Of a stretch of DNA of 64,000 bases, positions 24,919-35,740 are shown in pieces. The DNA comes from Micromonospora yasonensis. Its GTDB lineage: Bacteria; Actinomycetota; Actinomycetes; Mycobacteriales; Micromonosporaceae. The notes below the pieces were generated by a model. The model did no database searches. It was not told the DNA's origin and was given only the letters and a program-made list of their open reading frames with translations. Made by a program: the position numbers and the translations under genes. Location: contig NZ_JAPDPH010000001.1 of NCBI RefSeq assembly GCF_026013475.1, positions 1-64,000 on the forward strand, in the 5' to 3' direction. The stretch's first letter is position 1. Each line of letters starts with the position of its first letter.

Positions 24919-26007
24919 TCAGTGCTGGCACACCGGGCAGAACCCGGCCTCGTCGACCGCGCTGCCGTGGCCCTCCCACGTGCAGTTCGGGTCCACCTTG
25001 ATCGGTCCTACCGACGTCACGTCGACGACCGCGGCCGGCACCTGCACCACAGCCTCCGGGTCCAGCTCCACCGTCACCGACGCCGCCAGGGCCTGCGCCT
25101 TGCGCAGCTTCGCCGACACCTTCCCCGCCGCCGTCCGCAGGTGGTCGACCCGCTGCCGGTACGCCGCCACGCCGCCGTCGGCGCCCGCGAGGACCTTCGC
25201 CAGCTCCTCCGCGTCCATCGCCGCCAGCTCGGCCAGGATCTCGCCGGCCGCCGCCAGGCGGTCGATCTTGCTGACCACCTTCTTCCGCTTGGCGACGACC
25301 TCCGCCTGCTTCTCCTCGCTGTGCTCTTCCTCGTCGATCTGGAAGAACCCCGCCTGCTCCTCAGCCAACTTGCACGCCTTCGCGAACTCCTCGGCGTCCC
25401 GCGCCGACCTGAACTCACCCCGCGCCCACTTCACCAGGAACCGCCGCTGCTGGTCGGCCGACAGCCGGCACACGTACCAGGCGACGCCCACCTGCAGCTG
25501 CCCCTTGGCGACGAGCTGCTTCGCGTCGTCGATCAGCCCGAGCAGGTCGATCCGCCACCCGATGTACGGCTGGCTCTTGCCGAACAGCTCGGCGATCCGC
25601 TCAGTCTCCCAGCCGGCCTGCGCGAGGCGTTGGTAGGCGGCGGCCTCCTCCATCGGCGTCATGTCCTGCCGGTTGACGTTCTCCGCCACCTGCGCGATGA
25701 ACGCCGTCTCGTCGTCCATCTCCCACACCATCGCGTGCAGCTCCTCGATGCCGCCCTGCTGGGCGGCCCGCCAGCGCCGCTCGCCGACGACCAGGCGGTA
25801 CTGGCCCGCCTTCGCCGTCTTGCGCACGGCGACCGGCTGGAGTTGGCCGAGCTTCTGCATCGATGCCGCCAGCTCGGCCAGCTCCTCCTCGGTGAACTGC
25901 TTGCGCGGCTGGTCCGGGTCCGCCTCGATCTTGGCGACCGGGATGGTCCGCACCACCGGCCCCTTGTTGCCCTTCGCCGGCCGCTTCGCGGTAGCAGTCG
26001 CGGTCAT
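24919..26007 (-). CDS. ParB/Spo0J-like nuclease-domain DNA-binding protein
   Basis: 362 aa. Residues about 18-110 form the ParB N-terminal domain (PVAKIEADPDQPRKQF, VVGERRWRAAQ, ENVNRQDMTPMEEAAAY), followed by an HTH region (RIAELFGKSQPYIGWRI), a long charged helical middle, and a C-terminal zinc-knuckle-like tail (NCTWEGHG...FCPVCQH). ParB proteins bind parS and hydrolyse CTP to slide on DNA for partition; others act as regulators. No ParA is adjacent. ATG 26007 has GTGGAGGAAGCG before it and a strong promoter (site b) upstream. Confidence 0.9.
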   Translation of the reverse strand: MTATATAKRPAKGNKGPVVRTIPVAKIEADPDQPRKQFTEEELAELAASMQKLGQLQPVAVRKTAKAGQYRLVVGERRWRAAQQGGIEELHAMVWEMDDETAFIAQVAENVNRQDMTPMEEAAAYQRLAQAGWETERIAELFGKSQPYIGWRIDLLGLIDDAKQLVAKGQLQVGVAWYVCRLSADQQRRFLVKWARGEFRSARDAEEFAKACKLAEEQAGFFQIDEEEHSEEKQAEVVAKRKKVVSKIDRLAAAGEILAELAAMDAEELAKVLAGADGGVAAYRQRVDHLRTAAGKVSAKLRKAQALAASVTVELDPEAVVQVPAAVVDVTSVGPIKVDPNCTWEGHGSAVDEAGFCPVCQH

Positions 26008-26038
26008 CGCTTCCTCCACAGTGAACGAGTACCAAAAC

Positions 26039-26118
26039 GTACACATTCATTGTAGTCGAAAAACGATCTTGGCGTCAATAATCTATGTACGGGTGACCGT
26101 GGAGCGCATCACGCAACA
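26039..26118 (-). promoter_or_regulatory. promoter/operator of the parB-like gene (site b)
   Basis: TTGACG (26073-26078), 18-bp spacer, TACAAT (26049-26054). Inverted half-boxes GTACACATTCATTGTA (26039-26054) and TCAATAATCTATGTAC (26075-26090) flank the pair. An upstream block (26091-26118, GACCGTGGAGCGCATCACGC) matches that of sites c, g, h and i. Confidence 0.8.
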
Positions 26119-26342
26119 GCGCAGGCCAGAGAGGCGAGGAGCGTCGGGGCCAGGGGGCCGGCCGCCACGTAGCCCGCGCTGCGGCGCACCACCCGGCGGG
26201 CAATGCTGGGCAGCTCGACCGGCGCCGGCCGCAGCACCTCTGCGACCTTCTCCACCTGCTCATCGCTGAGGTCGGCGTCGTCCGCCCGGCCGGATGCCAG
26301 CTCGGCCTCGATCCGCTCCGCCAGCTTGTGGATCTCGATCAT
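26109..26342 (-). CDS. hypothetical small helical protein
   Basis: 77 aa from ATG 26342 (MIEIHKLAERIEAELASG); a start at 26393 would add 17 residues and is preceded by a TCACAGTGGG sequence resembling the element's leader box. Acidic helix followed by SIARRVVRRSAGYVAAGPLA. No domain recognised. Confidence 0.45.
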   Translation of the reverse strand: MIEIHKLAERIEAELASGRADDADLSDEQVEKVAEVLRPAPVELPSIARRVVRRSAGYVAAGPLAPTLLASLACAVA

Positions 26343-26399
26343 GCGCTTGCGATGCAACGTGCAGCTCCCCGTCCGTCTCGATGCGCTAGCCATCCCACT

Positions 26400-26577
26400 G
26401 TGACCCCATAGGGCGGGCGACTTGAGCAGGGCCATTGAAAGATCGAACGAAGAGGATCATAGGCACGCCGAAACGGAGCGCAACAGATCAACTGTCCACA
26501 GTGAAAGAAGATTCCCGAATTCTGGTTACATGGGACGCCTTCGAGCCGATAGTCCGTTGTGGAGCAGTATCACTCCA
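26400..26577. other. AT-richer non-coding spacer
   Basis: This spacer is clearly lower in GC than its surroundings and holds no gene. It contains the inverted repeat GTGGAG / CTCCAC around 26554-26575 and separates the serine-recombinase remnant from the small gene at 26109. Confidence 0.4.
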
Positions 26578-27543
26578 CTACTTCCACACGAACTCGAGCC
26601 GGTCGAGGTCGAGCTGCGACGCACCGGCCCGGGTCGCCGGCTTCACGATGATCCGGTCCAGGACGAGAGCCAGCAGCTCGCGGCGCCGCTCCAGCGGGGC
26701 GTCGACCCACCACTCGGACAGGCCCTCCGGCGTCGTCGCCGGCAGCGCCTGCAACCGCGCCGCCTGGGCGATGCGCTCGCGGACCTGCTTCTGCTCGCGC
26801 TTCGCTTCGGCCTCGATCGCCGTCAGCGTCACCAGGCTGATCTCCCGCCGCGCGTACGCCTGGCCGGCCTCGGCCAGGCGGTCGTCGATCGCCTGGAGCA
26901 CCCGCTCCATCGTCGCCGCGCCGTCCTTCGCCGAGCCGACCGCGCGCTCCAGCCGCGCCCGGATCTTCGGCGACGCCAGCCGCGCCAGGGCCCGGGCGGC
27001 GACCTCCTCCTCCAGGCTCTCCGCCGCGATCCGGATGCGCCCGCACCCGTAGCTAGGGCTGCCGGCCCGGCACACGTACCCGCGCTTGCCGCTGTTGCTC
27101 GGCTGCGTGTACAGCGGCTTCCCGTCGATGTTCGTGCCGGTCCCGGCCTCGTCGGGCAGCGGGTACCCGCACACCAGGAACCCGCCGGACAGCAGGTACT
27201 TCCGCTGGTTGGTCGCGTGCGGCTGCTTCCGCTCCGGGGCGTCCAGCAGCGCCAGCAGCTTCTGGTGCGTGTCCCGGTCGATGATCGCCGGCCACGGGGC
27301 GTCGCCGACAACCTCGCCGTGGTACGTCTTCAGGCCCGCCAGCCGCGGGTTGCGCAGCAGCCGCGACAGCGACTGCTGGGTCCAGGGCCGCCCGGCGGAC
27401 GTCGCGACCTCGCGCGCCCGCAGGTCCGCGACGACAGACCGCATACTGTCCCCGTCGAGGACCCGCTTCACGACCTCACGGATCACCGTCGCCTCGGCGT
27501 CGATGATCTGTCTGCCCGTCTCGTCGTACCCGTAGCACCGCAC
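26578..27543 (-). pseudogene. large serine recombinase lacking the catalytic domain
   Basis: 321 aa. The visible part begins at RCYGYDETGRQIIDAEATVI, i.e. the 'recombinase' domain that normally follows a ~150-aa resolvase domain. It continues with the zinc-ribbon region (LVCGYPLPDEAG, YVCRAGSPSYGCGRI), a coiled-coil and the end domain. The Ser-nucleophile resolvase domain is absent upstream; a stop (TAG) lies 14 codons before GTG 27543. Either the gene is 5'-truncated or it makes a DNA-binding-only protein. Confidence 0.75.
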
Positions 27544-27708
27544 CGTCTGACCCCCACACGAAAGGCCGGCCTGAACTCGACCGGCCTATAAGCTAGCAGT
27601 GCCCCATAGCACCGTGCTACGTACACGCGCATAGGAGTTACCAACGCGTAACTGTCGCGTCCCGGACACCGTACCCCCCTACCCCGACGGCGCAACCCCG
27701 ACACGAAA

Positions 27709-27742
27709 GGGCCCGGCACCCCCTGACATGGGTGCCGGGCCC
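27709..27742. terminator. strong hairpin terminator
   Basis: Perfect 13-bp stem GGGCCCGGCACCC / GGGTGCCGGGCCC with 8-nt loop, between the recombinase remnant and the 27870 gene. A second, weaker hairpin (GGCCGG / CCGGCC) lies at about 27566-27589. Confidence 0.8.
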
Positions 27743-27869
27743 TCTGCTCGTTACCGGGCCGGTCAGATTGCGCTGTCCCCCGACGGCTCTGCTGACCGGC
27801 CCAGCGATCCGAGCGACTCCCTGAGATGAAGCCGGTCACATTCAACCACTGCGACCGGATGGATCGCCA

Positions 27870-28259
27870 CTACAGCGAAACCCAGCGGTCGCCCTCGCGG
27901 TACTGGATCTCGACGCAGCCGTAGTTCGGCGTCCCGAAGTCGTACAGCGGCCCGAAGTCCTCCTCGCCGCCCGGCTCCCCCGCCGTCCAGATCAGCCCCT
28001 CGTACACCACGCCGCGCTCCCCCGGGTCGACGTCGGCCCGGTCGCAGTCGACGTCGCCCTCGTCGAGCATCCGCCACGGCCGGCCCACGGTCCGGGCCCG
28101 CTCGACCATCTCGTCCGTCGCCTTGCCCGGCCCGGCCGTCCCGACCTCCGATTCGCCGCCGCGCAGCTCGTGGGCCCGGTCCCGGGTAATCACCCAGGCG
28201 TACGGGCTGTCGTCCCACTGCGCCGCCCGCTCGGCCGCGATCATCGCCATCGACACCAT
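27870..28259 (-). CDS. hypothetical acidic protein
   Basis: 129 aa, acidic, soluble. Contains YAWVITRDRAHELRGGESEV and a C-terminal GPLYDFGTPNYGCVEIQYRE stretch. Similar proteins occur near SpdB/DUF2637 genes in actinomycete plasmids, but no function is known to me. Starts at ATG 28259, 12 bp after the DUF2637 gene stop. Confidence 0.6.
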   Translation of the reverse strand: MVSMAMIAAERAAQWDDSPYAWVITRDRAHELRGGESEVGTAGPGKATDEMVERARTVGRPWRMLDEGDVDCDRADVDPGERGVVYEGLIWTAGEPGGEEDFGPLYDFGTPNYGCVEIQYREGDRWVSL

Positions 28260-28271
28260 CTGTCTCTCCTC

Positions 28272-29282
28272 CTACTCGACCCCGGCGCCGACCGGCAACC
28301 GGGCGTCCTGCTGGTCGGTTTCGCCAGCGACATCGCCGCCGGCCTCCTGCTCGGCCTGGAGCTCCTTCCGGGCCTCCGTGATCCGGTTCCGCCCCCACCG
28401 CTCGCTCCGCTTGAAGCGATCGCCGAGCGCCTTGCCGGTCAGCGGCTCCCCGGCCGCCAGCGAGTCCCGCCACACCTTCCGCGCCGCCGCGTTCTCGTCG
28501 GCACCGTCCGCCGGCACCCGGTACGGGTCCGGCGGCGGCACCGGCTGCCGGGCCGGCCACGGCTCCGGCGGCACCACCACGTCGAGCGACGGCAGCGGCA
28601 CCCGCGCCGACTGCGGCACCGGCTCCGGGTCCGGCGGCTCCGGCACGGGCTCCGGCTCGGGCTCCGAGTCCGGGTCCGGCGGCACCGGCTCCGGCTCGGG
28701 CTCGGCAGCACGCGGCACCGGTACGGGGTGCGGCACCGGCACGGGCTCCGGCACGACGGCCGGCGGCACCGGCACCGGCTCGGGCTGCGGCACCGGGGGC
28801 GGCGGCACCGGGGCCGCGGCGACGGCAGCCGGGAACGCCTCCTGCTCGGCAGCACGGGCCACGGCGGCGGCACGCACGGCCGCGTCCGCCTCGCGCCGCT
28901 GCTGCGACAGCACCACCAGCCCGATCGACGCCACGACCACCAGGCCGTCGACGGACAGCGGCAGCGTGCTCGCCGTCAGGCCGTCCTCGCCGTACTCCAG
29001 GGCCAGGCCCTTCATGTGCCGGTAGCTGGCCAGCGCCGCGACCCCGGCGACGATCACCGTGCTGGCGACCTGCACCCGCCGCAGCCGCTTGTGCCGCGGT
29101 GCCGGCACCCGCGTCATCACCTCCGAGCACAGCAGCAGCGCCAGCGGCGCCCAACCGGCGACGGCACGGGCGACGCCTCCGGCACCGGCGTGCGCGATGT
29201 TCGCCGCCAGCGATGCCGCGATGCCGGCACCGAACGCCAGCCACACCGACACCCACGCGCCCTTGCTCGGCCGCTCCGGCAC
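28272..29282 (-). CDS. SpdB-like DUF2637 membrane protein with C-terminal HTH
   Basis: 336 aa. The N-terminal ~120 residues hold about four TM helices in the DUF2637 pattern (WVSVWLAFGAGIAASLAANI, GWAPLALLLCSEVM, ASTVIVAGVAALASYRHM, VDGLVVVASIGLVVL). A long Pro/Glu/Val-rich linker of PEPVP-type repeats (about 160-240) leads to a small winged-helix segment (LTGKALGDRFKRSERWGRNR). DUF2637/Spd proteins are linked to plasmid spread in Streptomyces conjugation. GTG 29282 is chosen because the recurring GTTCACGTGGAGAAGG leader lies just before it. Confidence 0.8.
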   Translation of the reverse strand: MPERPSKGAWVSVWLAFGAGIAASLAANIAHAGAGGVARAVAGWAPLALLLCSEVMTRVPAPRHKRLRRVQVASTVIVAGVAALASYRHMKGLALEYGEDGLTASTLPLSVDGLVVVASIGLVVLSQQRREADAAVRAAAVARAAEQEAFPAAVAAAPVPPPPVPQPEPVPVPPAVVPEPVPVPHPVPVPRAAEPEPEPVPPDPDSEPEPEPVPEPPDPEPVPQSARVPLPSLDVVVPPEPWPARQPVPPPDPYRVPADGADENAAARKVWRDSLAAGEPLTGKALGDRFKRSERWGRNRITEARKELQAEQEAGGDVAGETDQQDARLPVGAGVE

Positions 29283-29312
29283 GTCGACCTTCTCCACGTG
29301 AACCATGCCGGC

Positions 29313-29384
29313 CTACCCGGCGGCCTCGGCGGCACGGCCGCCGGTCGGCAGTGCCGGCACGTCCGGCACCGTCTTGCTCTCCAT
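29313..29384 (-). CDS. possible 23-aa peptide
   Basis: Short frame MESKTVPDVPALPTGGRAAE ending AAG, from an ATG preceded by GGAGGGGAAACCG and placed just upstream of the DUF2637 gene. It could be a leader peptide coupling translation; evidence is only the ribosome site and position. Confidence 0.35.
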   Translation of the reverse strand: MESKTVPDVPALPTGGRAAEAAG

Positions 29385-29408
29385 CGGTTTCCCCTCCAAC
29401 AGGTCGAG

Positions 29409-29430
29409 GCCGCCCGGGGTCCCGGGCGGC
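29409..29430. terminator. hairpin terminator
   Basis: 10-bp stem GCCGCCCGGG / CCCGGGCGGC 13 bp after the stop of the 29443-29733 gene. Confidence 0.65.
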
Positions 29431-29442
29431 TCTCCTCGGTCG

Positions 29443-29733
29443 TCACAGGCGGGTCAGCGTCTCCCCCACCAGCTCGCCCCGCTCGGCCACCGCCCGCTCG
29501 TGCTCGTACAGGTGGCCGGCGCACAGCAGTCGCTCCTGCGTCCACGGGTCCAGCTCCAGGCCCTCCTCCGGGTCGAACAGGCACAGCCCGCCGTCCCCGC
29601 ACTTCTCGCCGTCGTGCTCGATCACCACGCGGGCGACCGCGGCGCCCGCGCACGGGCCGTGGTCCTCCTCGGGCACGAACTCAGCGTTGAAGGTCGGGAT
29701 CACCAGGCGCTCGGTGCAGATCAGGTCGCTCAT
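29443..29733 (-). CDS. hypothetical small acidic protein
   Basis: 96 aa. Three or four Cys (HGPCAGAAVARVVIEHDGEKC, GLCLFDPE, LLCAGHLYEHE) could bind metal. Not recognised. ATG 29733 has a GAGGAGAGAC-type site. Confidence 0.6.
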   Translation of the reverse strand: MSDLICTERLVIPTFNAEFVPEEDHGPCAGAAVARVVIEHDGEKCGDGGLCLFDPEEGLELDPWTQERLLCAGHLYEHERAVAERGELVGETLTRL

Positions 29734-29771
29734 GTCTCTCCTCAGGTCAGGGTCGGGTCGGGCACGAAGAA

Positions 29772-29798
29772 GGCGGGCGCGCTCGAGGCGCGCCCGCC
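29772..29798. terminator. hairpin terminator
   Basis: 10-bp stem GGCGGGCGCG / CGCGCCCGCC after the 29806-30045 gene. Confidence 0.7.
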
Positions 29799-29805
29799 GG
29801 CTCGG

Positions 29806-30045
29806 TCAGCGGTACTGGTTGAGGGTCAGGGTGTACTCGCGGCCGTCGGTCAGCCGGATCACGACCCCGTTGTCCCGCGTCATGAAGCCCGCGTCGGCCA
29901 GCGTCTGGATCTCGCGCATCTCGACCGGCTCGTTGTCGTCGTCGGTCAGCGGCTCGTCGCCGGCCGACTCGGCGGCCATCTCCAGGTCCAGGCCCTCCAG
30001 GGCGACCATCAGGGCGCGCTCCAGGATCTCCTCGTAGCTCAGCAT
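29806..30045 (-). CDS. hypothetical small protein
   Basis: 79 aa, acidic (MLSYEEILERALMVALEGLD), ending in a beta-rich VVIRLTDGREYTLTLNQYR. AGGAGAG precedes ATG 30045. First gene behind promoter site c, so it is expected to be regulated with the other boxed operons. Confidence 0.6.
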   Translation of the reverse strand: MLSYEEILERALMVALEGLDLEMAAESAGDEPLTDDDNEPVEMREIQTLADAGFMTRDNGVVIRLTDGREYTLTLNQYR

Positions 30046-30079
30046 CTCGGCTCTCCTAACAGGCATGATGGGGCGGAAC

Positions 30080-30158
30080 GTACAACTTCATTGTATGCGG
30101 ACGGCAGTCTCGCATACAAGTTTTATGTACGCTCCGGGCCGTGTAGCGGGTCACACAG
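30080..30158 (-). promoter_or_regulatory. promoter/operator module (site c)
   Basis: TTGTAT (30114-30119), 18 bp, TACAAT (30090-30095). Inverted half-boxes at 30080-30095 and 30115-30130 (TACAAGTTTTATGTAC), plus the upstream block GGGCCGTGTAGCGGGTCACA (within 30131-30158). Confidence 0.85.
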
Positions 30159-30465
30159 GCCGCGACTCGGGCCGCTCCCCCAGCCGCCGCGCGTCCAGCT
30201 CGGCCGACGCCTCCAGCAGCCACGCCGGCGGGCCCGGCCGCCGGCCGGCGGGGCGCGGCAGCGCCCGCCCGCCCGGCGCGGTCCGCTCCCGCCCGCAGCC
30301 CCGGCAGTTGGTCGTCAGCCACACCAGGCCGCCGCCCTCCGGCACCGAGCCGTCGAGCAGCCCGCCGCAGGAGTCGCACACCCCGACGGGGCCGGCCTCG
30401 GCGGCGGCGGCGAACGCCTTTACGTCGACCAGGCCCTCACGGACCAGCCGCGCGTCGATCGCCAC
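30151..30465 (-). CDS. zinc-ribbon hypothetical protein
   Basis: 104 aa. VCDSCGGLLDGS and TTNCRGCGRE give four Cys for a zinc ribbon between an N-terminal helical part (AIDARLVREGLVDVKAFAAA) and a basic Pro-rich tail. GTG 30465 follows GGGGAGG. Its 3' end overlaps the conserved upstream block of promoter site c. Confidence 0.6.
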   Translation of the reverse strand: MAIDARLVREGLVDVKAFAAAAEAGPVGVCDSCGGLLDGSVPEGGGLVWLTTNCRGCGRERTAPGGRALPRPAGRRPGPPAWLLEASAELDARRLGERPESRPV

Positions 30466-30492
30466 CGCCCACCTCCCCGGCTCCGATGTGGA

Positions 30493-30530
30493 GCGGGGCC
30501 GGGCGAAGGTCGCCCCCCGCCCGGCCCCGC
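30493..30530. terminator. strong hairpin terminator
   Basis: 13-bp stem GCGGGGCCGGGCG / CGCCCGGCCCCGC, just downstream of the 30537-31073 gene. Confidence 0.75.
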
Positions 30531-30536
30531 ACCCGC

Positions 30537-31073
30537 TCACTCCTGCTCGGCCGCCGGCAACGCCAGCAGCTCCGGTAGCGCCAGCCGACCGTCCCGGTAG
30601 GCCGCCGCCACCTCCTCCCGGCCGCCCTTCTTGAAGGTCAGCGTCGTCGACGGGGGCGGCGGCTCCGCGACCTCCACGAAGTCGAGGACCCGGCCCGTCT
30701 CGCCGTCGACCACCGTCCCGTCTTGCTCGACACGCATCCGGCCGAGCAGCGCCTTGCGGAACGCCGGCCGCACCGTGTCGACCGGCGCCGGGACGGTCGT
30801 CTGCACCTCGGTCGGGTGCTCCAACCTGCACCAGTCGACGAACTTGCCCTCGTCGACCACGAAGCCGGTCTTCGGTTCGGTCAGCGTCACCTGCGCCACG
30901 GCCGCGCCGTAGCCCGGCAGCCGGACCTCGATCGTCGTCACGCCCAGCTCGCCGTTCAGCTCCACCAGGCTGCTGTCGGCCTCGGCCCGCGCGGCGTCGT
31001 ACGCCTTGCGCACCTCGTCCATCAGGGCCTTCAACACCGCTGCCCGCATGGCCTGCTGCTGCACGGCGCTCAC
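30537..31073 (-). CDS. hypothetical protein coupled to Sak4-like ATPase
   Basis: 178 aa. A helical N-terminus (MRAAVLKALMDEVRKAYDAA) precedes a beta-rich core (TTIEVRLPGYGAAVAQVTLT, FVDEGKFVDWC-type region) and VRPAFRKALLGRM. Its GTG start overlaps the stop of the Sak4-like gene (GTGA), so it is probably part of the same recombination/replication system. No known family recognised. Confidence 0.6.
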   Translation of the reverse strand: MSAVQQQAMRAAVLKALMDEVRKAYDAARAEADSSLVELNGELGVTTIEVRLPGYGAAVAQVTLTEPKTGFVVDEGKFVDWCRLEHPTEVQTTVPAPVDTVRPAFRKALLGRMRVEQDGTVVDGETGRVLDFVEVAEPPPPSTTLTFKKGGREEVAAAYRDGRLALPELLALPAAEQE

Positions 31074-32158
31074 CGGGCCGCTCCCGCCGTCTCGGGCTGC
31101 CGGCCGTTGGCCCGCGCCATCCGCCCGGCGTCGCGGACCTGCTGCGCTCCAGCCTCCTCCGACGCGTCGGGGTCGGACCTGCGCGCGCCGGCCGCCTCGG
31201 TCAGCGCGTTGTCGAGCTGGGTGCCCGGGGCCTCGGCCGCTCGCCGCGCGGCGGCGATCTCCGCGCCCCGCGCGTTGAAGGCGTCCCGCAGCTTCTGCGT
31301 CTTGCCGAGGCGCTGCGCCCGCTGCCACAGCACGGACAGGTCCTCGCGCGACGCGCACGCCGCCAGGGCCTTCGGCCAGTCGAGGTCCTTCGGCGGCTCG
31401 CCGTTGTCCAGCCAGTCGAGCAGCTGGTGGCCCAGCTCCGCGTCCGGCTTGTGGATCACCTGGTCGGACAGCGCCACGCACCGGCTCTTCGTCACCCGCA
31501 GGTAGTGGTCCTGGTCGAGGTCGCCCACCAGGTCGAACTCGTACTCCAGCCCGTCGCGCTGGTCGGGCTGCATGCCCAGCTTGGATACCTGCTTCTTGCC
31601 GTCGCTGCCCTCGGTGATCTCGTACTTCTGCTTCGATCGCAGGCACACCACGACGTGCCCGGGGAAGCTCATCAGGGCCTCGATGTACGCCCGCTCGATC
31701 GGGCGCACGTCCTTCCAGCCGTCCATCGACCGGCCGCCGTGGTTGCGGGCGAACAGGTCGACCAGCTCCAGGATGCCGCCCGGCCCGAACCAGTAGTGCG
31801 ACGCCGAGTCGAGCATGAAGCCCGTGAACCCGGCCACGGCCGCCTCGTCGATCAGCTCCACGAGCTGCCGCGGGTCGTACCGCACCGGGCTGATCTTTGA
31901 GAACCCGTAGCCGCCCGCCTCGTCCGGCGTCATGTCGCCGACGCCCGGCAGCTCCGGGTTGACCGCGTACTTGTCCGCCGAGTCCCGCTCGGTGTCGACG
32001 AACGCGATCCGCTCGATGCCGTCGGCGACGGTCTGCGCGCCGGTCAGCGTGTAGAGCAGCTTCAACCCCGTCAGGGTCTTGCCGGCACCGCTCGGCCCGG
32101 CGAGGGCGACCCGCGCCTTCGCCTTCTTCCGGCTGGCTGGCATGAACCTCGAACTCAT
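31070..32158 (-). CDS. Sak4/RecA-like AAA ATPase (phage recombination)
   Basis: 362 aa. Walker A is GPSGAGKTLTGL near residue 25, Walker B GFTGFMLDSASHYW, followed by VVVCLRSKQKYEI. This is the AAA_24/Sak4 type of phage single-strand-annealing-associated ATPases, which assist recombination-dependent replication. The C-terminal 100 residues are charged and disordered. ATG 32158 is chosen because GGAAAGGAACGAC and the CACGTG leader box lie directly upstream; promoter site d precedes. Confidence 0.8.
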   Translation of the reverse strand: MSSRFMPASRKKAKARVALAGPSGAGKTLTGLKLLYTLTGAQTVADGIERIAFVDTERDSADKYAVNPELPGVGDMTPDEAGGYGFSKISPVRYDPRQLVELIDEAAVAGFTGFMLDSASHYWFGPGGILELVDLFARNHGGRSMDGWKDVRPIERAYIEALMSFPGHVVVCLRSKQKYEITEGSDGKKQVSKLGMQPDQRDGLEYEFDLVGDLDQDHYLRVTKSRCVALSDQVIHKPDAELGHQLLDWLDNGEPPKDLDWPKALAACASREDLSVLWQRAQRLGKTQKLRDAFNARGAEIAAARRAAEAPGTQLDNALTEAAGARRSDPDASEEAGAQQVRDAGRMARANGRQPETAGAAR

Positions 32159-32187
32159 GTCGTTCCTTTCCACGTGAACGAACGTCC

Positions 32188-32203
32188 TACATAGACTTTA
32201 TAC
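32188..32203 (-). promoter_or_regulatory. degenerate promoter box (site d)
   Basis: Minus strand TATAAAGTCTATGTAG resembles the -10/half-box TACAATGAATATGTAC of the other sites, with -10 TATAAA (32197-32202). No clear -35 is seen. Confidence 0.5.
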
Positions 32204-32440
32204 GGTCGCCGTCGAACACTGCGACCCGACACCTACGGCCGACGAAAAAGCACCCGCGCAGCCCGCGCAAGCCTCACTCCCGACAGCGGCCGGCAGGCCG
32301 CAGTCCGGGTACCGGCAGATCACCGGCTCGGCCAGCTCGGTGCAACCCGTGCCCTCGCGGTGCCGCCAGTCGTCTCCGGCGGCCACGAGCACGCCGCTGC
32401 ACGTCGCGCACTGCGCGACGTCGACCGGCGCGAGGTACAC
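32198..32440 (-). CDS. hypothetical zinc-finger protein
   Basis: 80 aa with several CxxC pairs (CATCSGVL, CRYPDCGLP, CAGCAG) and HREGTGC. Probably a two-zinc mini protein. GTG 32440 is preceded by GGGGAG; it follows the initiator gene by 2 bp, so the two are co-translated. Confidence 0.55.
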   Translation of the reverse strand: MYLAPVDVAQCATCSGVLVAAGDDWRHREGTGCTELAEPVICRYPDCGLPAAVGSEACAGCAGAFSSAVGVGSQCSTATV

Positions 32441-32442
32441 CC

Positions 32443-33132
32443 TCACTCCCCGATCACTCTCCTTCCCTTCTCGGGCACGGCCCGCAGCGCGGGCCCGTGC
32501 AGCGGAGCCGACTTCCTGCACCCGGGATGGGCACATGCGCCGTTCGGCCCCTCGACGTACCGGTGGTCGACACCGCTCGCGGCACGGCGCCCAACCGGTT
32601 CCATTGGTTCTCTGTATGTATTGAGTCCGCGTGGCGGACTAACTCGGTCCGTCTGGCGGACTAGCTCTAGTCCGCGTGCCGGACCAACTTGGCCCTTCGC
32701 TGGTCCGTCCACCGGACTACCAGACCCGGGCGATTCGGGCGCGGCTGGTCCGGCACGCGGACCAACTACCCCTTTCTCGATGAGCACGCGCAGAAGGTCC
32801 GGCGGCACGTCCAGCCGATAGCACGTCTTCGCTTTCTTGCGCCGGGCGTCCGCGACCGTCGGCCGCTCGCGCCACACCCACTTGCGCTCCGGGCGCTCCT
32901 CGCCGTCCTCCCCGTCCTTGCCCTCCAGTCGGTTGAGCCACTTCGTGACCGTCGACCGGACCATGCCCGTCGCGTGCTGGAGATCGGTCAGGCTCGGCGT
33001 GAACCGCTCGGGGATCATCGCCGTCTTGGGGTCGCACCAGGTGAGCAGCGTCAGGACGAGGTGCCGACCAGGAGGCTCCAGGTCGCACTCCTTGCTCCTG
33101 ACCGCGCGCTCGACCGTCCACCGGTCCACCAT
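32443..33132 (-). CDS. winged-helix replication initiator-like protein (O-type) with internal iterons
   Basis: 229 aa. The N-terminal 100 residues form a winged helix (HLVLTLLTWCDPKTAMIPER, PSLTDLQHATGMVRSTVTKW, LNRLEG), as in phage O/DnaT-like initiators and plasmid Rep proteins. The C-terminus is basic with a Cys/His tail (CAHPGCRKSAPLHG). Five 15-bp repeats of GTCCG-N5-CGGAC lie inside the coding sequence at 32625-32762, with an AT-richer stretch beside them, as in lambdoid O genes whose origin is internal. The Sak4-like gene follows downstream. Confidence 0.65.
   Translation of the reverse strand: MVDRWTVERAVRSKECDLEPPGRHLVLTLLTWCDPKTAMIPERFTPSLTDLQHATGMVRSTVTKWLNRLEGKDGEDGEERPERKWVWRERPTVADARRKKAKTCYRLDVPPDLLRVLIEKGVVGPRAGPAAPESPGSGSPVDGPAKGQVGPARGLELVRQTDRVSPPRGLNTYREPMEPVGRRAASGVDHRYVEGPNGACAHPGCRKSAPLHGPALRAVPEKGRRVIGE
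32625..32762. repeat. five GTCCG-N5-CGGAC iterons, probable replication origin
   Basis: Copies at 32625-32639, 32647-32661, 32670-32684, 32703-32717 and 32748-32762; starts are 22, 23, 33 and 45 bp apart, close to 2, 2, 3 and 4 helical turns. The repeats are inverted-symmetric. An AT-richer patch at 32601-32624 adjoins the array and could be the unwinding element. Confidence 0.65.
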
Positions 33133-33230
33133 GCAGGCGGCCTCTCTGTGCAGCGCCGCCAGCGCACCGTCGCCCGAACTGGCGTACGATGCGCTTGCGA
33201 CCCGTTCTTCTCCGTTCCGGGTTCACCTTC

Positions 33231-33260
33231 GACCCCGCCAGATGACCGCCTGGCGGGGTC
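33231..33260. terminator. hairpin terminator
   Basis: 11-bp stem GACCCCGCCAG / CTGGCGGGGTC between the excisionase-like gene and the initiator gene. Confidence 0.7.
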
Positions 33261-33324
33261 GGTGCGTTTTCCGGCACCCTACACCGGATGTGTAGGGCCG
33301 CAATGGGATCGGCGCTGCTCATCT

Positions 33325-33627
33325 CTACGCCGCCTCGTCGTCGGCTTCCAGGACGTCCCACGGGTCCCACACGATCTTCCGGTTGGTCTTCTCGGCCCAG
33401 GCGTAGATCGTCATGAGCTTCCACTGCGGGTTGTTGCTGACCTCGCCGTCCTCCTTGGGCAGCTGGCCCTTCGACCGCCACTGATACGGCGTGTTGTCCT
33501 TCACGCCGAACATGCGAACCAGCTCCTTGAGCCCCACCATCGAGGGGATCTCCACCGGGCCCGGCGTCATCAGGTCGGCCGCGATCCGCCGCGTGACCGC
33601 CTTCAACTTCGCCTGGTTCACCTTCAC
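33325..33627 (-). CDS. MerR/excisionase-like small DNA-binding protein
   Basis: 100 aa. VGLKELVRMFGVKDNTPYQW followed by RSKGQLPKEDGEVSNNPQW is a winged MerR/AlpA-like helix-turn-helix typical of excisionases and phage repressors. GTG 33627 has GGAGGAGAGG upstream. Candidate recombination directionality factor or regulator of the boxed promoters; neither can be shown from sequence. Confidence 0.65.
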   Translation of the reverse strand: MKVNQAKLKAVTRRIAADLMTPGPVEIPSMVGLKELVRMFGVKDNTPYQWRSKGQLPKEDGEVSNNPQWKLMTIYAWAEKTNRKIVWDPWDVLEADDEAA

Positions 33628-33655
33628 TGTTCCTCTCCTCCCACGGCCGAATGCC

Positions 33656-33672
33656 ATACAACGTCAATGTAC
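33656..33672 (-). promoter_or_regulatory. GTACAT-type half-box (site e)
   Basis: Minus strand GTACATTGACGTTGTAT, one copy of the box, between the Ssd-like stop and the excisionase-like start. No matching second half or clear -10 is present, so it may be an operator only. Confidence 0.5.
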
Positions 33673-33690
33673 GGCACCCGCCGGGGACGG

Positions 33691-34617
33691 TCAGGCCGCC
33701 ACCCGGGCGGCGGCGTACGGCGCGCTGCGCAGCAGGTCCCGCGCCAGGTCGAGGAGCGGGCAGCGATCCAGCAGGTGCACCCGCCCGTCCGAGAAGATCG
33801 ACGGCGGCTCCAGCGGCACCTCGTCCAGCAGCCGCACCGCGAACTCCCGGGCGATCTCCTGCGCCACCGTGTCGTGCATCCACGTCGGCTCCAGCGCCCA
33901 CCGCACGCCCTGCTCGGACAGCTTCGCGGCGACCCACCGGCTGGCCATCGGGTTGCGCCCCGCGTTGGCGACCAGCAGCACCAGGTCACACTGCCGGGCG
34001 ACCTCGACCTGGCCGGCGTCCAGCGCCCGGTCCAGGTCGACCACCTTCACCTCGGCGGCGTGCCGCTCGACCGCCCGCAGCGGCCGGAACGACTCGTCGA
34101 CCACGCGCAGTTCGTCGGCCGGCGTGCCCAGCCGGTCGTCCACGCCGGCACGCCCGACCGCGTCGACGAGCAGCGTGCGCCGCCCCTCCTCGGCCGCGAC
34201 CAGCCCCAGCGCCACCGCCAGGGACGTCGCCCCGGCGCCGCCGTGGCCGCCGACCACGCCGATCCGCACCTCGGCCGCCTGGCCGTTGGCCGCCTCGGCG
34301 ACCAACTGCCAGACGGCCTGCGCGCCGGTCGGCAGGTGGTACACCGGCACGTCCGGGTACTCGGCCTGCCAGCCGCGGGCGGCGGCGGCCAGCCGGTCAC
34401 CGTCCAGCTTCTCCGGAGCGACGACCACCATCCGCGGGTGCGCCGGCATCCCGGCCGCCAGCGTCAGCACGCGGGCGTCGACCAGCACCAGCGGCGCGCC
34501 GCGCCACTGCGCGACGGCCGGCTTGCCGACCACGACGTCCACTTCGGCGTCGCCCAGGGCGTCCACCACCTCGTCCACGAACTCGTGACCCCAGGCCACG
34601 ACCAATGCCTTGCCCAC
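33691..34617 (-). CDS. Ssd/CpaE-type ParA-like ATPase
   Basis: 308 aa. Residues about 5-105 resemble a receiver-like N-terminus; the ATPase half has VRIGVVGGHGGAGATSLAVA as a deviant P-loop without the canonical Lys, then TLLVDAVGRAGVDDRLG and LVLLVANAGRNP. This is the pattern of septum-site-determining (Ssd) and CpaE-like proteins of actinobacteria, which localise to membrane or pilus/secretion complexes. In mobile elements they accompany SpdB/conjugation genes. Driven by promoter site f. Confidence 0.75.
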   Translation of the reverse strand: MGKALVVAWGHEFVDEVVDALGDAEVDVVVGKPAVAQWRGAPLVLVDARVLTLAAGMPAHPRMVVVAPEKLDGDRLAAAARGWQAEYPDVPVYHLPTGAQAVWQLVAEAANGQAAEVRIGVVGGHGGAGATSLAVALGLVAAEEGRRTLLVDAVGRAGVDDRLGTPADELRVVDESFRPLRAVERHAAEVKVVDLDRALDAGQVEVARQCDLVLLVANAGRNPMASRWVAAKLSEQGVRWALEPTWMHDTVAQEIAREFAVRLLDEVPLEPPSIFSDGRVHLLDRCPLLDLARDLLRSAPYAAARVAA

Positions 34618-34646
34618 TCCAAACCTCCTGATAGGGGCAGCGATAC

Positions 34647-34697
34647 GTACAAAGACATTGTATAAAAGTCGGGCCCTTGCGTCAATATTGTATGTAC
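34647..34697 (-). promoter_or_regulatory. promoter/operator (site f) of the Ssd-like gene
   Basis: TTGACG (34680-34685), 17 bp, TACAAT (34657-34662). Half-boxes GTACAAAGACATTGTA (34647-34662) and TCAATATTGTATGTAC (34682-34697) are inverted. Confidence 0.8.
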
Positions 34698-34764
34698 GGC
34701 GGCGCGGCGCTTTGCTCGCCGTCGACGCGGGCCGCTATGCTGGTGTCTCCACGTGAACGCAGCA

Positions 34765-34792
34765 CAGCCCCGGATTTCGCGATCCGGGGCTG
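34765..34792. terminator. hairpin terminator after the tail operon
   Basis: Stem CAGCCCCGGAT / ATCCGGGGCTG with a 6-nt loop, 28 bp beyond the glycine-rich tail protein stop. Confidence 0.8.
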
Positions 34793-34819
34793 CGCTGTTT
34801 CCAAGGCCAAGTCAGGCGG

Positions 34820-35740
34820 TCAGTAGACGACCTCCACGATCACCAGGCCCCCCTTGCCGCTGCCACCGCGCCGCGACGTCGCCTGGCCGATCGCGCCGGC
34901 CCCGCCACCACCCCACCCCAGGGCGCTCGGCGCGTCACCGCTGACCGACCCGGACGAGTTCGCCCCGAACCCGAGCAGCGAGTTGCCGCCCTTGCCCCGG
35001 AACGTGTGCCGGGAGTCGAGGGTCCGGTTGTAGTCGCCGTACTCCCCCGGCGAGTTCAGCACGTTCCCGCCCACCGCGGTGCCGCCACCGCCGCGCCCGC
35101 CGGCCTGGTCGCCGACGATCGCGCTCACCCCGGGGGCGGAGCCGCCGCCGCCGGCCGTCCACAGCCCCCCGAAGCTCGTGTCCCCGCCCGTGCCGCCGGC
35201 CCCGAACGCCCCGCCAGCGCCGCCAATGCCGACCGTCACCTGCACCTCGGCGGGCAGCTCGGCCGCCGACCACACGCTCTCGCAGTAGCCGCCGCCACCG
35301 CCGCCACCAGCCGCGCCGTTGCCGCCGGACACGCCGGTCACCCCGCCGCCACCACCGCCGCCGCCGACCCCGTACGCCCGGATCCACCGCGCGCCGGCCG
35401 GCACCTTGAACGTCCCGGTCTGCGTGAACGCCTGCACCGGCCCGGTCGGCGCGCCCGCAGCCGGCGAGCCGACCAGACCGACGATGTGGTTCCCGGCCGG
35501 CGGTGACTTCATCACCATCACCCGGGCGCGCACCGGCACCGCGCCGATCATCGACGTCACCCGGATCGCCTGGCTGTCGCCGTCGTGCAGCGCCCGGATC
35601 GTCCCGTCGCTGGCCACGCTCGTCACCGTCGCCGGCCGCAGCCGCCACGTCAGCCCGAGCCGGACCGCCTTCTCCAGCACCGCCTCGGCGAGCGCCTTCA
35701 CTGGCACCGCCAGGCCCGGCGTCTTCCCGCCTTCGCTCAC
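34820..35740 (-). CDS. glycine-rich minor tail / fibre protein
   Basis: 306 aa. The N-terminal ~100 residues look like a baseplate-attached beta domain (DGDSQAIRVTSMIGAVPVRA). The rest is a Gly-rich jelly (runs of up to eight Gly in VGGGGGGGGVTG) ending in LVIVEVVY, as in phage tail proteins with glycine-rich adhesin domains (PF21722-like tips). Likely exposed at the tail tip. GTG 35740 overlaps the preceding tail gene by 4 nt. Confidence 0.75.
   Translation of the reverse strand: MSEGGKTPGLAVPVKALAEAVLEKAVRLGLTWRLRPATVTSVASDGTIRALHDGDSQAIRVTSMIGAVPVRARVMVMKSPPAGNHIVGLVGSPAAGAPTGPVQAFTQTGTFKVPAGARWIRAYGVGGGGGGGGVTGVSGGNGAAGGGGGGGYCESVWSAAELPAEVQVTVGIGGAGGAFGAGGTGGDTSFGGLWTAGGGGSAPGVSAIVGDQAGGRGGGGTAVGGNVLNSPGEYGDYNRTLDSRHTFRGKGGNSLLGFGANSSGSVSGDAPSALGWGGGGAGAIGQATSRRGGSGKGGLVIVEVVY

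Follow-up and report, generated by a model that had tools for sequence, protein, structure and literature searches.

In the window (the whole 64-kb stretch of DNA analyzed here), a gene of an unannotated prophage carries five copies of one palindrome inside its coding region, raising the question of whether this gene encodes a replication initiator and contains the very origin on which its product acts. Nested origins are known from lambda and SPP1, each described as its own case in the parts of the literature available to us. According to the accessible parts of these papers, the iterons of lambda are imperfect inverted repeats of 19 bp and there are Stx phages that have six of them (PMC7466680), the anatomy of ori-lambda has been described (PMC3349717), the oriL repeats of SPP1 lie within gene 38, the gene of the origin-binding protein gp38, beside an AT-rich unwinding region (PMC6316719), a Francisella phage gene holds a putative origin (PMC7924643), and the O-like gene of phage MD8 holds repeats (PMC8508860); the available text on non-lambdoid Stx phages contains nothing on iterons (PMC8044961). 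We propose that the window gene, from a so far unannotated family of prophages in Micromonospora and related bacteria, very probably harbors a nested lambda-type origin, which we infer to be bound by the product of the same gene.

RESULTS

Five exact palindromes inside a winged-helix gene

The five GTCCG-N5-CGGAC repeats anticipated by the original prediction were all exact, at intervals of 22, 23, 33, and 45 bp, and no further exact copy was found anywhere in the window (Table 1). Dinucleotide shuffles of the window contained a mean of 0.63 and at most 3 exact palindromes, none of 100 reaching five. As also predicted, all copies lie within the coding region of a protein modeled by AF2 with a winged helix, and the first one begins in codon 124, past this N-terminal domain, as in the lambda-type plan. 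The repeats had furthermore been placed near whole helical turns, which holds only loosely in this single gene: the intervals correspond to 2.10, 2.19, 3.14, and 4.29 turns at 10.5 bp per turn and to 2.00, 2.09, 3.00, and 4.09 turns at 11 bp per turn. Since phasing at 10.5 bp is weak, it was dropped as stand-alone evidence and replaced by a population test (see below). The AT-richer patch expected beside the repeats is real but modest, the 60 bp past the last repeat on the gene's 3' side having 36.7% A+T versus 31.3% for the whole gene; the 40-mers with the highest A+T content in the gene (52.5%) sit where the last repeat ends, and the predicted start at 32601 takes in this flank. GC skew across the prophage showed no switch at the array.

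Table 1. Coordinates of the features of the window discussed in the text
Feature	Position	Strand	Basis or remark
ParB gene	24919-26046	-	Pfam/PHROG match
Serine integrase remnant	26578-27543	-	phrog_95 244-573 of 651, later profile part only
Initiator-like gene, 229 aa	32443-33132	-	ORF list, conserved residues, AF2 model
AT-richer flank, candidate unwinding region	32561-32620		3' of array in gene sense
Iteron 5	32625-32639		Exact match; gene offset 493, frame 1
Iteron 4	32647-32661		Exact match; gene offset 471, frame 0
Iteron 3	32670-32684		Exact match; gene offset 448, frame 1
Iteron 2	32703-32717		Exact match; gene offset 415, frame 1
Iteron 1 (gene order), GTCCG-N5-CGGAC	32748-32762		Exact match; gene offset 370, frame 1
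Winged-helix domain, residues 4-120	32773-33123	-	AF2 model
Recognition helix, residues 59-69 (core V58-R59-S60-T61-V62)	32926-32958	-	AF2; aligned to half-site-covarying helix
Weak ParA-like match	33691-34617	-	CbiA E 0.004, below cut-off

The 229-aa protein consists of the N-terminal winged helix, a disordered linker encoded by the iteron region, and a short C-terminal part with conserved Cys and His residues. In the AF2 model, blocks over residues 11 to 70 have a mean pLDDT of 79 to 88, and residues 126 to 150 and 152 to 188 fall below 50, the linker encoded by the array region being of low complexity with GPxxGP-like peptides. Pfam returned only weak HTH matches, none at E 0.01, and no Phage_rep_O (PF04492) match at E ≤ 1. 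No PHROG matched at E ≤ 0.001 (phrog_270 only at E 0.21), so that by profile the protein belongs to neither phrog_270 nor phrog_391; hence, the initiator role of the protein rests on its plan and on the recognition code described below. Foldseek with the whole model gave nothing at E ≤ 0.001 in the PDB or the viral library, and a PDB sequence search (query A1) gave chance-like rows only. The fold neighbors (Foldseek, VIA-align) are mostly winged-helix domains, including those of MarR and CRP-type regulators, the plasmid RepA N-domain, and the DnaD N-domain, all closely tied. PDB entries 4pql, 4pt7, and 5kbj, which we take to be plasmid RepA (listed as DNA-binding protein, initiator, and Rep-DNA complex), and the DnaD N-domain 2v79 have this fold in common with the window protein at Z 6.2 to 7.1; they are tied with many unrelated regulators and thus indicate fold likeness only.

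A small ORF on the minus strand (32198-32536), with a weak zinc-ribbon match below the cut-off (E 0.004), shares 94 bp with the 3' end of the initiator ORF; in one relative (L006), similar sequence continues in the same open frame after the initiator.

Prophage context

The prophage around the array gene also encodes tape-measure and tail proteins, ParB, and the C-terminal portion of a serine integrase. The integrase profile was matched over its later section alone, and no N-terminal catalytic part was seen upstream in the three minus-strand frames, so the integrase gene looks truncated. Neither a helicase loader nor a helicase was recognized with Pfam and PHROGs in the early prophage ORFs scanned, a phrog_1366 protein being among the unknowns. 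The ParB gene and the weak ParA-like match occur alongside the integrase remnant; mycobacteriophages have parABS in place of the integrase, according to the accessible part of the source (PMC7157519). A second place in the window genome (G000:C497:17315-17620) matches phrog_270 (E 3e-13) and yielded no array of at least three palindromes with 5-bp arms.

Conservation at the DNA level

Loss of the repeats in relatives would have refuted the original prediction, which survived this test: a protein scan of IMG/VR found eight relatives of the window protein (54 to 98% identity), all with 4 to 5 exact copies at corresponding places. Among seven relatives in named genomes (Micromonospora, Micromonosporaceae, and Actinoplanes; mostly Micromonospora), some of which may be the same phages as in IMG/VR, six carry 3 to 7 copies. 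The seventh, a shorter match of 577 bp in Micromonospora endophytica (L135:3296-3872), holds fewer than two exact repeats. Within the genus, 22 of 160 genomes, including that of the window, contain a match to the family; the eight full-length intact members (L432-L439) have 3 to 5 copies each, and the broken or short members examined have 0 to 2. No relative was found in the phage collection by tblastn of the window protein or by megablast of positions 26000 to 35000.

Synonymous freedom offered a further check that had been asked for from the outset. In 14 full-length genes, the window's included, selected from the full-length members fetched, conserved fourfold-degenerate codons kept one third base throughout at 8/8 positions in the repeat arms versus 4/50 elsewhere (Fisher P = 2.6e-7). 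The constraint therefore acts on the DNA and not on the peptide.

The same site in initiator genes of other phages

The repeat had been described as unrelated to that of lambda, which is correct, but it is not special to this phage, as it recurs in many O-like initiators. Pairs of GTCCG-N5-CGGAC 4 to 34 bp apart were found in at least 120 stretches of IMG/VR, compared with 20 for the permuted-arm control GCTCG-N5-CGAGC; by eye, none of the 20 control loci looked like an O-like initiator, seven belonging to one capsid-like family and one (L154) holding a Cro-type HTH. The GTCCG loci span 29 to 74% G+C and, among the matches listed, the array lies mostly inside an ORF. From these and from N6 loci, 68 array-bearing ORFs were hand-picked as representative and winged-helix-like (51 N5, three of them of the window family, and 17 N6): 49/68 match phrog_270 ("replication initiation protein"), 41/68 match phrog_391 ("O-like"), 43 match HTH_36, and 3 match Phage_rep_O. 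Four loci (L012, L031, L050, and L105) combine a Phage_rep_O match (E 1e-21 or better) with GTCCG arrays. The lambda-O-like members pair the helix KRQH with GTCCG.

GTCCG-N6-CGGAC, intended as a null for N5, was found in 84 stretches, many of which proved on inspection to lie inside winged-helix ORFs; N6 is therefore not a null and was treated as a second dialect. Many of these arrays (L157-L236) lie inside other winged-helix ORFs, several at 34 to 39% G+C. They may represent the same half-site with a dimer spacing one base wider.

GTCCG as a universal site can be rejected: no GTCCG array was present in the 30 actinobacterial phrog_270 loci fetched, and 97/160 relatives sampled without regard to iterons (see below) hold fewer than two copies. 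Likewise, none of 12 cultured-phage relatives (of 112 records matched) has GTCCG among its arrays; 4/12 have three or more copies with 5-bp arms, all combining the helix SRSTAR with GGGCC. The Streptomyces phages SV1, Picard, Mojorita, and ToastyFinz, whose O-like proteins are annotated as replication initiation or DNA-binding proteins, resemble the window gene in having nested palindromic arrays after a winged helix at about the same place, but their helix is SRSTAR and their half-site is GGGCC(G) instead of GTCCG.

Two other observations concern arrays outside this pattern. Near actinobacterial phrog_270 matches, palindromic arrays with 4-bp arms occur at L247, L267, and L256 (GCAG-N3-CTGC in six and four copies and TGAC-N5-GTCA in five copies). 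At L071:4835-4879, on the same IMG/VR contig as the close relative L001, two GTCCG-N5-CGGAC copies 30 bp apart lie outside any ORF of 60 aa found; by analogy with oriR besides oriL in SPP1, this pair is perhaps a second site.

Layout of the arrays across phages

Over 65 nonredundant GTCCG loci with 246 iterons, all three reading frames are used (68/117/61), more than one of them in 53/65 loci, and the intervals peak at 22, 33 to 34, and 45 bp. The helical phasing that was loose in the window gene becomes clear at this level, with a Rayleigh length of 0.646 at 11.3 bp and 0.591 at 10.5 bp against a 95% null of 0.193, with the caveats that the scan itself demands one pair 19 to 49 bp apart and that the null is uniform over 17 to 70 bp. 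In 88%, the base at the center of the iteron is A or T. On the 3' side of the array, the A+T content of 60 bp exceeds that of the gene in 61/65 loci (mean, 0.459 versus 0.366), to which the linker encoded there may contribute, and the 5' side is not AT-richer (38/65 loci; P = 0.14).

This layout supports the predicted likeness to lambda O/ori: the gene plan, an array after the winged helix, and the use of several frames match, as does, though only modestly in the window, the AT-richer 3' flank. In lambda gene O, the four iterons, each an imperfect inverted repeat, also lie inside the initiator gene after the DNA-binding domain, 20 to 24 bp apart and in frames 0, 2, 2, and 1, with the AT-rich flank on the 3' side (0.70 versus 0.52), the same polarity as in the GTCCG loci. 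The window gene differs from lambda in its half-site (GTCCG versus TCCC), its far weaker AT patch (0.37 versus 0.70), the absence of a Phage_rep_O match, and the lack of a recognized P-like loader. Applied to lambda gene O, our array finder recovered 3/4 annotated iterons with 4-bp arms and 2/4 with 5-bp arms; as the census used 5-bp arms, lambda itself would miss the three-copy cut. The SPP1 gp38/oriL system, as far as the accessible part of its description goes, resembles the window gene in having repeats in the own gene of the origin-binding protein. The extrachromosomal mycobacteriophage prophages Miko, Rachaly, and Jeeves encode a RepA-like initiator with an N-terminal HTH, and the cis ori of prophages of this type is presumed to lie in or beside repA; in contrast to the window, they lack integration cassettes and no repeated motifs were identified in the named regions, at least in the part of the source available (PMC7157519).

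Covariation of the recognition helix with the half-site

To sample initiators without regard to iterons, IMG/VR was searched with the winged-helix domains of families F1 (best 80 of 357) and F2 (best 80 of 93). GTCCG-N5 occurs at least twice in 63/160 loci (31 F1 and 32 F2), and a de novo finder detected repeated palindromes with three or more copies in 95/160 loci compared with 0/155 upstream regions, 0/154 downstream regions, and 0/160 codon shuffles. This exact finder misses arrays with varying arms, and 65/160 loci have no three-copy array.

F1 and F2 loci use several half-sites; examples are ARSSV and GRTAV helices paired with (G)GTCCG, SKRAV with GGTGC, SRSTAR with GGGCCG, SRNTVR and TKNTVR with GGGTCA, TREAV with GGTCGG, and D[KR]SNVSR with GTGCG on an even dyad. 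Over 63 nonredundant loci, the distances between half-sites and those between helices correlate when the rest of the domain is controlled (partial r = 0.316; 0/2,000 permutations), and the best nine-column blocks across the whole domain are those over the recognition helix. In the three bins of equal background divergence containing both kinds of pairs, 0.03 to 0.08 of the half-site differs between helix-similar pairs and 0.38 to 0.54 of it between helix-different pairs.

Judged from sequence alone, the half-site also switches with the helix in divergent members of the window's own family: SRRAV occurs with five GTGCA-N5-TGCAC (L448), SRSAL with three TACCG-N5-CGGTA (L450), AKSTVK with three GGCCA-N5-TGGCC (L451), and GRSTV with five GTCCC-N5-GGGAC (L454). 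SRRAV is also found in F1 with GTGC-N7-GCAC (seven copies in L281, eight in L345). Between families, helix similarity correlates with half-site identity (Spearman 0.545; 0/2,000 within-family permutations, maximum 0.397) over 45 unique helix/site pairs from three families, including nine hand-picked window-family members from which L449 (same helix, two TACCG copies) and L458 (no array found) were left out. The window helix VRSTV and its GTCCG obey the rule, even though the family has no profile match.

The rule was then put as a prediction fixed before the result was known: GTGC-N7-GCAC arrays should go with helices of type [SG][KR]RxV. A scan for three such sites gave at least 120 loci, of which 91/120 were kept (winged-helix ORF at E ≤ 1). 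For comparison, 124 GTCCG loci were considered (136 before removal of 12 repeats). No ORF of 140 aa covered most of an array in 15 of these, and a further 15 of the remaining 109 were removed by eye as not winged-helix-like or truncated (L024, L039, L047, L049, L055, L059, L062, L088, L100, L103, L104, L106, L121, L122, and L125), leaving 94. The HMM cut for this set was lax (E ≤ 10, passed by 93/94), and where ORFs overlapped at one locus, the one with the most ordinary amino-acid make-up was chosen. Arg occupies the predicted helix position in 84/91 GTGC loci and 0/94 GTCCG loci; the residue before it is Glu, instead of Lys or Arg, in 18/91 GTGC loci. After redundancy removal at 70% identity, Arg is found in 51/58 versus 0/45 loci (P = 4e-22) and Ser/Thr in 2/58 versus 36/45, with 7/58 GTGC loci and 9/45 GTCCG loci as exceptions. 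To exclude the families from which the rule had been derived, loci at least 45% identical to F1, F2, or window domains were left out; the counts for Arg are then 46/53 versus 0/33 (P = 3e-17), and with a 35% cut, they are 25/31 versus 0/24.

A strict one-helix-one-site code is ruled out. GRSTV goes with GTCCC in L454, whereas GRTAV goes with GTCCG, and SERAV/SERTV go with CGCAG-like sites in one family and with GTGC in others.

DISCUSSION

Altogether, the repeats, their conservation at the DNA level, their layout, and the covariation of helix and half-site across phages were observed, and from them we infer with good confidence a lambda-O-type replication module, i.e., a phage initiator gene containing its own origin, which would be bound by dimers of its own product. 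In the proposed mechanism, in which binding, dimerization, unwinding, origin function, and helicase loading are all inferred, the N-terminal winged helix would sit as a dimer on each GTCCG-N5-CGGAC, with the half-site read by helix 59-69 (core VRSTV). The five dimers would be aligned on roughly one face of the DNA, over the stretch coding for the disordered linker, and could strain the AT-richer DNA on the 3' side, leading to the loading of the host DnaB helicase. The covariation supports binding by the initiator only indirectly.

The most serious alternative, which we nevertheless consider unlikely, is that the sites are operators only, through which the winged-helix protein regulates its own or a neighboring gene, replication starting elsewhere. 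Palindromes like these are targets of winged-helix repressors, the nearest solved folds belong to MarR and CRP-type regulators, and no helicase loader was recognized beside the gene in the ORFs scanned; yet the sites lie 370 to 508 bp inside the gene and away from its start, the AT-richer flank is on one side only, and many array-bearing relatives are classed as replication initiators. In phage SoJo, a relative of family F2 is annotated as a RepA-like initiator and followed by a gene annotated as a helicase loader. Several helically phased copies in an array are typical of origins. It is much less probable still that the repeats are centromere-like parS sites for the prophage ParB: such a gene is present, and in some mycobacteriophages repA is directly followed by a further parS locus composed of five direct repeats, according to the accessible part of the source (PMC7157519), but across families the half-site changes along with the recognition helix encoded in the array-holding gene itself. 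Finally, a by-product of protein-level selection on the repetitive Gly/Pro/Arg-rich linker, suggested by its GPxxGP-like peptides, is refuted by the frame and synonymous-site tests, as iteron 4 encodes VRQTD in another frame instead of the GPxxG-like peptide of the frame-1 copies, most phages use more than one frame, the third bases in the arms are frozen, and relatives carry palindromic arrays of different sequence in place of GTCCG.

Beyond the nested origin proposed for the window gene, we think it likely, though with less confidence than for the module itself, that in tailed phages a single recognition code connects the helix of O-like initiators with the palindromic iterons nested in the same gene, that this code spans initiator families with no other relationship and genomes differing widely in G+C, and that a few helix residues allow half-site bases to be read (Ser/Thr for GTCC and Arg for GTGC at one position). 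O proteins have been known to favor their own origins since the lambda/phi80 hybrids. In the open-access literature, judged by titles and the opening of abstracts among the matches listed and with subscription journals mostly outside, no report of a shared GTCCG iteron or of a helix-iteron code was found. With reader and target in one gene, a change of dialect would arise and be inherited in one piece.

Our study gives a testable role to an unannotated actinobacterial protein family. Its wider interest lies in a helix/nested-iteron code that carries across initiator families, in which the same site recurs in many of them and changes with the helix in a way carried over from one to another; reader and signal change in step, and knowing one often suffices to guess the other. 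If true, these genes would serve as a natural training set for predicting origins in thousands of uncultured phages. For phages beyond the reach of culture, the origin and the specificity of the initiator could then be predicted from sequence; prophages could be sorted into incompatibility groups; and a protein-DNA code could be learned from reader/target pairs that occur naturally within single genes.
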